A program made the translations under genes and the position numbers. Of a stretch of DNA of 34,685 nucleotides, positions 3,784 to 7,338 are shown in pieces; the stretch's first letter is position 1, and each line of letters opens with the position of its first letter. The DNA is from a virus: IMG/VR virus record IMGVR_UViG_3300042900_000247, positions 1-34,685 of that record; one strand, written 5' to 3'. A model generated the notes under the pieces. It had not been told where the DNA came from. It made no database searches and saw nothing but the letters and a program-made list of their open reading frames with translations.

Positions 3784-4056
3784 TTATAAGTTTTTATAGC
3801 AAAAAATCTCTATATCATCAACTGATCTAACAACCCTAGCAAAGCATCCATAAGCATTCAATACTTGTATTCTATGCTCTTGTAGGGGTGCAACAATACC
3901 ACTTTCTGTCTTAACTTCCAAAAATATGACGTTGCCTTTGCGGATGCACATAAGATCAGGTATGCCGTTCCAACTTGTTTTCTCAAGTTTTACTACTAGC
4001 CACCCAGACTTAGTTAGCTTATCTTTTATCTTTGTTTGTAGTTCTGATTCTTTCAT
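3784..4056 (-). CDS. VRR-NUC domain nuclease
   Basis: A 90-aa protein that is essentially one VRR-NUC (virus-type replication-repair nuclease) domain of the PD-(D/E)XK fold. Visible motifs are GIPDLM (31-36, Asp34), the strand FLEVKTE (45-51, catalytic Glu47 and Lys49), and PLQEHRI (57-63). Family members resolve branched DNA or act as structure-specific nucleases in phage replication. The length is typical for stand-alone phage versions. It overlaps the upstream gene by 4 bp and is followed at 3 bp by the primase-helicase, so the two are probably translationally coupled. Confidence 0.88.
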   Translation of the reverse strand: MKESELQTKIKDKLTKSGWLVVKLEKTSWNGIPDLMCIRKGNVIFLEVKTESGIVAPLQEHRIQVLNAYGCFARVVRSVDDIEIFCYKNL

Positions 4057-4478
4057 ATTACCTCAATTATTTTATCAATAAAATCTATTATTACTTCTGA
4101 TGGCTGTAATTCGCCATTGTATTCTACTGAGAAATCTACTTCCCATACTTTGTCTTTATCTCTGATGGTGTAAATCATTATTTCTCCTTCTATAGCATTC
4201 CCTGTATCAATGCCGTTATGTTTGGTAAATAGCATCTCTTGTTCGATGAAATTTACATCGTCTTTATCAATTCTCCAATTGATTTTAAGCATCATTGAAT
4301 CTAAAATTGATTCAATAGATTTAATGCCCTGTAAAGTTTGATTTATGTCAATGTGCCAAGAAATTAAATTGCCATCTTTCTTTGATGACCAATAATCAAC
4401 TTCTACATTGATTGGGAGATTTAATCCGTAACTAAGGTTTTCGCATTGTACCTCAAAGTCGTTTGTCTTGTAAGTCAT
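4053..4478 (-). CDS. Hypothetical 141-aa protein
   Basis: Soluble, beta-rich acidic protein (MTYKTNDFEVQCENLSYGL...) with no family I recognise. The frame is open back to 4520, but that start lies inside the tRNA-like element at 4494-4581. I prefer the ATG at 4478, which follows a short A-rich leader of the kind used elsewhere in this phage. The tRNA-like element ends 15 bases before this ATG, so RNA processing there would leave a very short leader. It overlaps the VRR-NUC start by 4 bp and belongs to the replication operon. Function unknown. Confidence 0.75.
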   Translation of the reverse strand: MTYKTNDFEVQCENLSYGLNLPINVEVDYWSSKKDGNLISWHIDINQTLQGIKSIESILDSMMLKINWRIDKDDVNFIEQEMLFTKHNGIDTGNAIEGEIMIYTIRDKDKVWEVDFSVEYNGELQPSEVIIDFIDKIIEVI

Positions 4479-4493: not shown

Positions 4494-4581
4494 TGGGGCA
4501 AGGTAGGGAATCGAACCCACATTATCAACAAAGCTAGTATACTACTTCTATTTATTGTTGATAAAACCGCATTTCCTTGCC
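4494..4581 (-). ncRNA. tRNA-like element 1 (D-arm missing, long hairpin)
   Basis: Read on the minus strand, GGCAAGG (4581-4575) pairs perfectly with CCTTGCC (4503-4497) as a 7-bp acceptor stem, followed by CCA. A canonical T-loop (GGTTCGATTCC) sits at the standard distance, though the T-stem has only its inner 3 pairs (T-T and G-A mismatches at the outer two). No D stem can be formed; the linker contains GCGGTT. In place of the anticodon arm is a 9-bp perfect helix (4564-4556 with 4530-4522) capped by 25 nt. The layout recalls the tRNA-like domain of tmRNA or a D-armless tRNA. I see no credible anticodon. It lies between two genes of one operon. Confidence 0.55.
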
Positions 4582-6303: not shown

Positions 6304-6526
6304 TAAATTCTTTTTTTAGTCTTTCAATGTATAAGATAGCATCCATCAATTCTTCTTGCAAATGTGTAATCCATTGCAGATGTGATAAATCATCACGATT
6401 TAATGTAGTGCCATATTTTTTAATTCCAACTTCACTACGTTGCATAAACTTACCAATCACAGCATCTACTATTTTATCTTCTTGTTCTAATTTAATAAAT
6501 TCGTAGCACTTAGGGCATTGTTTCAT
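6296..6526 (-). CDS. MazG-like (all-alpha NTP-PPase) protein
   Basis: A 76-aa protein with an N-terminal CPKC pair and a helical core, VGIKKYGTTLNRDDLSH followed by HLQEELMDAILYIERLK. The EE-x2-DA arrangement and the KYG element match short phage proteins of the MazG/dUTPase-type all-alpha NTP pyrophosphohydrolase group, which hydrolyse nucleoside triphosphates. Only one acidic helix is obvious, so enzymatic activity is uncertain and it may act as a dimer or have lost catalysis. It overlaps both neighbours (8 bp and 4 bp) in the replication operon, consistent with nucleotide metabolism. Confidence 0.6.
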   Translation of the reverse strand: MKQCPKCYEFIKLEQEDKIVDAVIGKFMQRSEVGIKKYGTTLNRDDLSHLQWITHLQEELMDAILYIERLKKEFND

Positions 6527-7266
6527 TTCTTATGCTTTAGTTGATAAGATAAGTTCCTAGGCTTTATTTCATCATTTATGGCTTTCCATAAAGAATAAGT
6601 AGTTTGGAATATCTGCCAATCTGCTTTTACTTCTTTAATATCTTTTGTGATTAATTGCCATCCTTTGCCTTGTATTGCTCCTTTTTTGCCTTCTGTCCTA
6701 GTCTTAGCATTAAGCCAAAGAATAGCCACTTGATCAACCTTTACGCTATTTTCCTTTATAAGCTCATTATAGGCTGATAGCTGCAACCAATGAGTAGGTT
6801 GGATGCTATTGCTTGTCTTGATGTCTAATAGGATTTTCTTGCCGTTTATTTCAACTACTCGGTCAAGTGTTCCGGCAAATCCTAGCTTATCAGATATCAT
6901 GTGAACCTCAGACATCTCAATAATAGGATTTATCGTTTGGGTGAACTCAACATATCGTTCAAACATTGACCATTCGCTCATTTTATAAGTAGGATAGCCA
7001 TTATTATTTAAAAATGATACTTCTTGACCATCATCATATCTTTCTGTCAAATCGTGGACATTTGAGCCTCGTTTGCCAGCTTCATCTCTGATGGAGTCAG
7101 CATCTTGACCTACATCTTTAAGCCATTTAAAAAATGCTGCATCTTTAGGATATGCATCTAGAATTGTTGTAACTGATGGAATGTAGCTTCCATTTGGAGA
7201 TAAGTAGAACCTTGCATCTGTAAACTCAATACGGCCTTTAACCAAGTCAATTTGGAACTGTTTCAT
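6523..7266 (-). CDS. RecB/Cas4-like PD-(D/E)XK nuclease
   Basis: A 247-aa nuclease of the phage RecB-like exonuclease group. Visible motifs: RGSNVHDLTERY (67-78, His71), Glu120, GTLDRVV (132-138, Asp135), the catalytic strand LLDIKTS (146-152, Asp148 and Lys150), and the RecB motif QLSAYNEL (162-169). It probably resects DNA ends to feed recombination, in line with the SSB and helicase next to it. It starts 23 bp after tRNA-like element 2, with the leader AAAAAACACACACAATG and no Shine-Dalgarno. It overlaps the MazG-like gene by 4 bp. Confidence 0.85.
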   Translation of the reverse strand: MKQFQIDLVKGRIEFTDARFYLSPNGSYIPSVTTILDAYPKDAAFFKWLKDVGQDADSIRDEAGKRGSNVHDLTERYDDGQEVSFLNNNGYPTYKMSEWSMFERYVEFTQTINPIIEMSEVHMISDKLGFAGTLDRVVEINGKKILLDIKTSNSIQPTHWLQLSAYNELIKENSVKVDQVAILWLNAKTRTEGKKGAIQGKGWQLITKDIKEVKADWQIFQTTYSLWKAINDEIKPRNLSYQLKHKK

Positions 7267-7288: not shown

Positions 7289-7338
7289 TTCTATGCTAGG
7301 GGATCGAACCCAACACTTGCCGACCTTTCGGGCATAGA
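7289..7338 (-). ncRNA. tRNA-like element 2 (miniature, about 50 nt)
   Basis: On the minus strand TCTATGC (7338-7332) pairs perfectly with GCATAGA (7296-7290), a 7-bp acceptor stem, with A at the discriminator place (7289). Directly 5' of GCATAGA is a T-arm with canonical loop (GGTTCGATCC) at the standard offset. Only 18 nt separate the acceptor strand from the T-arm, holding one 4-bp hairpin (CCGA/TCGG, loop AAGG, 7331-7320). There is no room for an anticodon arm. The core TGGGTTCGATYCCCTA is shared with element 1, including a T-T mismatch in the T-stem. It fills the gap between the SSB and RecB-like genes. Confidence 0.55.

Follow-up and report, generated by a model that had tools for sequence, protein, structure and literature searches.

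Why should the early operon of a phage carry, between two of its genes, an RNA that folds like part of a tRNA? The question is raised by a stretch of 34,685 nucleotides (nt) from an uncultured phage (IMG/VR virus record IMGVR_UViG_3300042900_000247; the whole stretch is hereafter the window), in which an 85-nt tRNA-like element lies on the coding strand between a gene for 75 amino acids (aa) and a 141-aa gene. Judged from comparison with a homologue, the element is a real RNA structure under selection. It is also not alone: the early operon has a second tRNA-like element, and more of them occur in related phages. The reading preferred here, to which we give about an even chance of being correct, is that the element is intercistronic tRNA-like punctuation that would be cleaved by RNase P and RNase Z of the host.

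The 85-nt element and its homologue

The minimum-energy fold of the 85-nt element (-23.5 kcal/mol, z -2.3, with 4 of 200 shuffles equally good) reproduced the layout in Table 1, and an earlier note made from the window alone was correct on its sequence, coordinates, 7-base-pair (bp) acceptor, 9-bp helix around 25 nt and T-loop. The same note had found no place for a D stem or an anticodon, and this was confirmed: a stemless 10-nt linker was present instead of the D-stem, and the 9-bp helix with its 25-nt loop instead of an anticodon arm with a 7-nt loop. The GG of the linker may dock on the T-loop. Of the T-arm that it described, the loop TTCGATT stood, but the stem had only three Watson-Crick pairs besides U.U and G.A mismatches, both of them kept in the homologue. 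Similarly, the trailing CCA was present (4494-4496) and was followed after 15 nt by the start codon of the 141-aa gene (ATG at 4478), the distance noted earlier, but it was not conserved (CGAA in the homologue at locus L044) and began one position early for an end made of discriminator and CCA. The extension of the 9-bp helix through AAG/CTT and TAG/CTA pairs found no support because these pairs are located in a diverged loop.

Searches for known RNAs showed that ARAGORN called neither a tRNA nor a transfer-messenger RNA (tmRNA) in the window, and an Rfam scan of the window matched no family. The best weak Rfam match of the element was tRNA-Sec at 19.1 bits against a cut-off of 47, and cmscan up to E=5 gave no tmRNA match. 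No Rfam match to YrlA/Y RNA was obtained for the element, with no search aimed at an Rsr gene. The element also does not qualify as an intrinsic terminator, as its hairpin was followed by CCACUAAAAAAAACC and not by a U-run.

A homologue was found in one other phage lineage, at L044/L210 (the same contig) and L211, before the same 141-aa-type gene; the L044 and L211 contigs were identical over the genes compared. An exact 26-nt search with the element of the window found no other viral contig, a relaxed T-arm search of viral contigs returned L210 and L211 and nothing else, and the model R2, built from the window and L044 sequences, found no additional member in approximately 1 Mb of related loci. 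A looser pattern for the 5' half led to four more loci (L381-L384), which were judged to be chance matches with the complementary acceptor end missing. An alignment of the 141-aa gene had no stretch of sufficient conservation to serve as a search pattern.

Comparison of the window with L044 showed that the acceptor, the T-arm and most of the linker were identical while the loop of the 9-bp helix had diverged, at a distance where alignable flanking genes shared 65-74% of their bases and the 141-aa protein 37% of its residues. The search for covariation in relatives that the earlier note had proposed was run and gave three compensatory pairs in the 9-bp helix, each altered on both strands with no one-sided change, and an invariant acceptor. 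Because this test compared two distinct rows, its shuffle control was weak (54/500), but every slid register paired at only 40-55%. From an alternative start codon, the reading frame of the downstream gene would run on through the T-arm, but it would do so in different frames in the window and in L044; its conservation is therefore not protein-driven and a coding cause was rejected. As for the proposed check for an ordinary tRNA, ARAGORN read the L044/L211 copy as tRNA-Phe(aaa), a call that it did not make for the window copy and that Rfam did not make for the L044 copy; the hypothesis of a non-standard element was not refuted.

A second element and the gap that it occupies

A scan for a 7-bp acceptor with a T-arm gave 6 matches in 4.76 Mb of Markov-shuffled sequence, or approximately 0.04 per window, versus two in the actual window. 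These were the 85-nt element and a 49-nt element, and both have homologues with compensatory changes. The 49-nt element had been missed by the earlier note, as had the membership of a family, which could not be known from the window. It reads, 5' to 3', TCTATGC-CCGA-AAGG-TCGG-CAAGTG-TTGGG-TTCGATC-CCCTA-GCATAGA and combines an acceptor, a D-like hairpin and a T-arm without any anticodon arm. The alignment of nine versions (the window and eight homologues of equal length) had 99.3% paired cells, with covariation in all three helices, double changes in 11 of the 16 pairs and a hairpin loop that ended in GG in every version; none of 500 shuffles matched on any measure. The model built from the nine versions recovered two 50-nt relatives that had been left out, L024 (7e-13) and L109 (1.5e-9). 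The fold energy of the 49-nt element was moderately better than that of shuffles and no more. A 44-nt minihelix composed of an acceptor, a 13-nt connector and a T-arm was observed at L007 (9736-9693) and L008 (minus strand), with an ATG within approximately 20 nt after it.

The 49-nt element lies between a 193-aa gene and an exonuclease gene. The former is called SSB-like as a working name only; it had a single weak match to a PHROG of unknown function. Relatives of this region were gathered through the primase, exonuclease and SSB-like proteins and gave 78 distinct SSB-exonuclease gap sequences, which are counted here as distinct sequences and not as independent events. A tRNA-like element was present in 39 gaps by a scan that demanded acceptor and T-arm pairing, a terminator-like site only in 27, and neither by these criteria in 12, mostly with a plain hairpin. 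The 39 elements were minis (TC... acceptors), an AGTCAGG class (75-154 nt), an ACAAGGT class (86 and 106 nt) and a few others. The same slot was found to hold different fillers in close relatives: a hairpin in L027 and L120, and a 128-nt tRNA-like element in L029, to which the SSB-like gene was 75% (L027) and 92% (L120) identical and the exonuclease 80% and 83%, respectively. In 33 of the 39 gaps, 15-28 nt (most commonly 21-23 nt) separated the end of the last element from the exonuclease ATG. Six gaps departed from this spacing, and three of them (L090, L111 and L156) had a small reading frame that began 20-22 nt past the element. Plain hairpins in other gaps likewise often ended approximately 21 nt before the ATG. 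An Rfam search with six other gap RNAs found no known family.

Other structures were also seen in or near this slot. That of L105 held a tRNA-like element with the acceptor AGTCTGG/CCAGACT and the T-loop GTCATTA, and therefore scans that demand a T-loop undercount such elements. In L094, L115, L139, L085 and L090, the motif TGACWGCWTGGAAAGACAAGCA recurred within structured sequence close to the gap or to a tRNA-like element, and in the gap of L156, L158 and L159 the motif CAGGTGGGTGGCAACTA(T)CCAGAAGTTGCAAA recurred; neither had an Rfam match in the loci searched.

The early operon is tightly arranged on the minus strand and comprises the SSB-like gene, a PD-(D/E)XK exonuclease, a SNF2-type helicase, small genes, a VRR-NUC nuclease and a primase. 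No relatives at the DNA level were found among named phages, and protein relatives there were distant. Adjacent homologues of the exonuclease and the SSB-like protein (49%), together with a SNF2-like match, were found in two genomes of the family to which a Chitinophagaceae metagenome-assembled genome (MAG) belongs, and one of the two had a Leu-like tRNA-like sequence near these homologues. Model R1 gave no matches in 249 genomes of that family. Bacteroidota are likely to be the hosts.

Table 1. Positions of the two tRNA-like elements, their parts and the adjoining genes in the window.
Feature	Position	Strand	Remarks
SSB-like gene, 193 aa	7358..7939	-	upstream of the mini element; no Pfam match
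Mini-tRNA without anticodon arm, 49 nt	7290..7338	-	acceptor and T-arm scan; homologues; 65.5 bits
Mini acceptor TCTATGC/GCATAGA	7332-7338/7290-7296	-	
Mini hairpin CCGA-AAGG-TCGG in place of D-arm	7320-7331	-	4 bp, 4-nt GG loop
Mini T-arm TTGGG-TTCGATC-CCCTA	7297-7313	-	
PD-(D/E)XK/Cas4-like exonuclease gene	6523..7266	-	start 23 nt past the 49-nt mini element
tRNA-like RNA, 85 nt	4497-4581; with CCA 4494-4496, whole 4494..4581	-	fold; homologue in L044/L211
Acceptor 5' strand GGCAAGG	4575..4581	-	pairs with 4497-4503; invariant in L044/L211
10-nt linker AAATGCGGTT in place of D-arm	4565..4574	-	8/10 bases kept in comparison with L044
9-bp helix 5' strand TTATCAACA	4556..4564	-	three double changes, none one-sided, in comparison with L044
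25-nt loop of 9-bp helix	4531..4555	-	
9-bp helix 3' strand TGTTGATAA	4522..4530	-	three double changes, none one-sided, in comparison with L044; followed by a single T
T-arm: GTGGG 4516-4520, T-loop TTCGATT 4509-4515, CCCTA 4504-4508	4504..4520	-	identical in L044/L211
Acceptor 3' strand CCTTGCC	4497..4503	-	partner of GGCAAGG
141-aa gene	4053..4478	-	downstream of the 85-nt element; no Pfam or PHROG family

The AGTCAGG class and the ends of the elements

The pattern AGTCAGGTGGCGRAA..GGTARACGC was found in at least 120 viral stretches versus 7 stretches of the genome_contigs set, all 7 of which were contigs of MAGs or uncultured bins and possibly viral. A set of 162 AGTCAGG elements of up to 200 nt was taken from loci among the matches listed, and none of them lay inside a reading frame (at least 60 aa on the same strand or at least 80 aa on the opposite strand). 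They had the acceptor, a Leu-like D-arm and the T-arm in common with a middle variable in length and sequence, and some AGTCAGG and ACAAGGT relatives passed the Rfam tRNA model. It is tentatively proposed that these RNAs form a large virus-restricted class of phage tRNA-like RNAs in which the acceptor, the elbow and the T-arm are kept but an anticodon arm is either lacking (the 49-nt mini) or exchanged for a hypervariable domain (AGTCAGG, 60 to approximately 190 nt). tRNA maturation might then be used outside decoding, in small phages to split operon mRNAs and in larger phages to carry a variable domain aimed at some target.

Several variants were also observed. The loci L212-L331 (e.g. L219, L228, L247 and L274) represent larger phages with ordinary tRNA genes and several AGTCAGG elements per contig, and their elements had constant ends and hypervariable middles (60 to approximately 190 nt). 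A subclass at L104 (4904-4978), L268, L300, L308 and L105 conserved the core GCGTAATGAGGANNGGTTCCAARTCC on differing acceptor stems. At L261, L263 and L294 the tRNA-like genes looked unusual, an anticodon-like arm seemingly being enclosed by a CCC/GGG stem. In AGTCAGG elements of L111 and L219 the anticodon read by ARAGORN had four bases (caag), which may reflect an anticodon loop of 8 nt.

The 3' ends of the elements followed a tRNA-like rule. C74 was present in 35 of the 39 scan-found elements of the window's phage group, in 157 of the 162 listed AGTCAGG elements (97%) and in 167 of the 172 tRNA-length genes (97%) of the AGTCAGG-bearing loci from larger phages, mostly without an encoded CCA. 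Position 73 was C in 23 of the 39 window-group elements and A in 90% of the listed AGTCAGG elements, a difference suggesting that it is not charging that has been preserved in the window's group; the ends as a whole suggest a tRNA-type 3' maturation without constant charging. An RNase P-like leader bias was also seen, with U(-1) in 80% of the listed AGTCAGG elements and 64% of ordinary tRNAs.

Proposed function, alternatives and known systems

RNase P and RNase Z recognise the stack of acceptor and T-arm together with the T-loop, and the anticodon arm is not needed. On the polycistronic transcript the element would fold as half a tRNA, in which the parts kept (acceptor/T-arm stack, T-loop and mostly a nearby GG) correspond to those needed for recognition by these enzymes, and the anticodon arm is dropped or replaced. 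The element would be released by two cuts, one by host RNase P on its 5' side and one on its 3' side by RNase Z or a different 3' nuclease. The upstream message would thereby be split from the downstream one, which would start approximately 15-28 nt before its start codon, and the benefit would presumably be separate expression of neighbouring genes. Excision is the economical reading given where the elements lie, their strand, their spacing and the way terminators and hairpins take their place in relatives; the structure with its conservation and the C74 rule belong to the same observed basis. The earlier note had listed a processing signal for RNase P/RNase Z among its suggestions, and with intercistronic and co-directional placement and a near-constant distance to the ATG this became the best-supported mechanism, the cleavage itself being predicted.

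Several observations weigh against punctuation by cleavage. The 85-nt element had only three canonical pairs in its T-stem, U(-1) was absent from both window elements (C and G at -1), and the GGCAAGG class comprised two distinct sequences. The T-loop was absent before the 141-aa-type gene in the other phages that encode this gene, i.e. in most of them. Finally, the near-constant distance to the ATG could merely hold a structure off the ribosome site.

An alternative that we consider unlikely, though the best of the rivals, is a trans-acting RNA which once excised would offer host tRNA-acting enzymes, such as tRNA-cleaving anti-phage defences, a decoy or substitute, the operon position serving only for expression. 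Defences that cleave tRNAs are known to be countered by tRNAs of phages, for which action as a decoy has been suggested (PMC13096335). A missing anticodon arm would take away the target of anticodon nucleases, and the quick turnover of classes and the hypervariable AGTCAGG middles would fit an arms race. However, no defence target was identified, and the constant placement before a start codon and the exchange with plain hairpins and terminators favour a role in cis.

A role confined to mRNA structure (as an insulator, 5'-end stabiliser or attenuator), with the tRNA likeness serving just as a convenient route to a stable fold and without the involvement of tRNA enzymes, would agree with that exchange, as half of the gaps used ordinary hairpins or terminator-like sites. 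It is nevertheless quite improbable, since the T-loop, GG and C74 are kept though a mere hairpin needs none of them, and the fold energy of the mini only moderately beat shuffles.

The enzymes LeuRS and HisRS depend little on the anticodon, and an RNA aminoacylated outside decoding by one of these, for example, in the manner of tmRNA charged with alanine, was also considered. In other phages, the AGTCAGG relatives share a single acceptor sequence and a D-arm of the Leu type and mostly have A73, and G(-1):C73, the mark of tRNA-His, was present in 20 of 41 SSB-exonuclease gap elements and another Watson-Crick pair in five more. With C.C and G.A at -1/73 in the window's own elements, varying acceptors and no fixed position 73, this reading is very doubtful. 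A tRNA gene in decay, or a chance remnant of one, would account for the T-stem mismatches, the missing tRNA call in the window and the tRNA-Phe(AAA) call in L044, but it is highly improbable and was rejected on the compensatory changes in the 9-bp helix, the 16-pair covariation of the mini, the shuffled-sequence scan and the identity of acceptor and T-arm at a distance where the flanking genes have diverged.

If intercistronic cleavage is the function, host tRNA maturation enzymes would serve phages as scissors on their own messages, and the 49-nt elements would be small enough to reveal a minimal tRNA-like substrate. Mitochondrial tRNA punctuation would be extended to phages, the list of RNAs overlooked by tRNA finders would grow, and attention would be drawn to a much larger collection of viral tRNA-like RNAs without an anticodon (at least 120 stretches), whose variable domains call for a function. 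A search of the open-access literature found no published description of anticodon-less phage tRNA-like elements.

Among known systems, the tRNAs of phages T5 and T6 that counter tRNA-cleaving defence (PMC13096335) share a possible decoy or supplement role but are full tRNAs within tRNA clusters. The pseudo-tRNA tRNA-Other of Bacillus cereus (PMC3399842) likewise has a role outside translation and is part of a longer transcript; it differs in having an anticodon and in being chromosomal beside a genomic island, not an intercistronic phage element. The 7-bp acceptor and T-arm of a canonical tRNA are present in both window elements, with an incomplete T-stem in the 85-nt one. The Rfam tRNA-Sec and tRNA families (RF01852, RF00005) share the T-loop, the acceptor and a long helix preceding the T-arm, whereas the 85-nt element scored far under the cut-off and has no anticodon arm or D-stem. 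The likeness to the tRNA-like domain of tmRNA that the earlier note had pointed out held for the layout only (7-bp acceptor, stemless D region, long helix and T-arm); tmRNA itself was rejected, with no model match or ARAGORN call, no pseudoknots and no room for a tag reading frame in an element of 85-90 nt.

The t-elements of plant mitochondria, like the tRNAs of mitochondrial tRNA punctuation, are intergenic tRNA-like structures thought to be cut by tRNA-processing enzymes and so to form mRNA ends. The window elements differ from t-elements in belonging to a double-stranded DNA phage of bacteria, in lacking an anticodon arm, in occurring as several interchangeable classes and in a cleavage that is predicted. 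The theme of tRNA-like elements and tRNA punctuation is touched on in passages of PMC8003010. What the window elements have in common with t-elements is a tRNA-like top half placed between genes on the coding strand.
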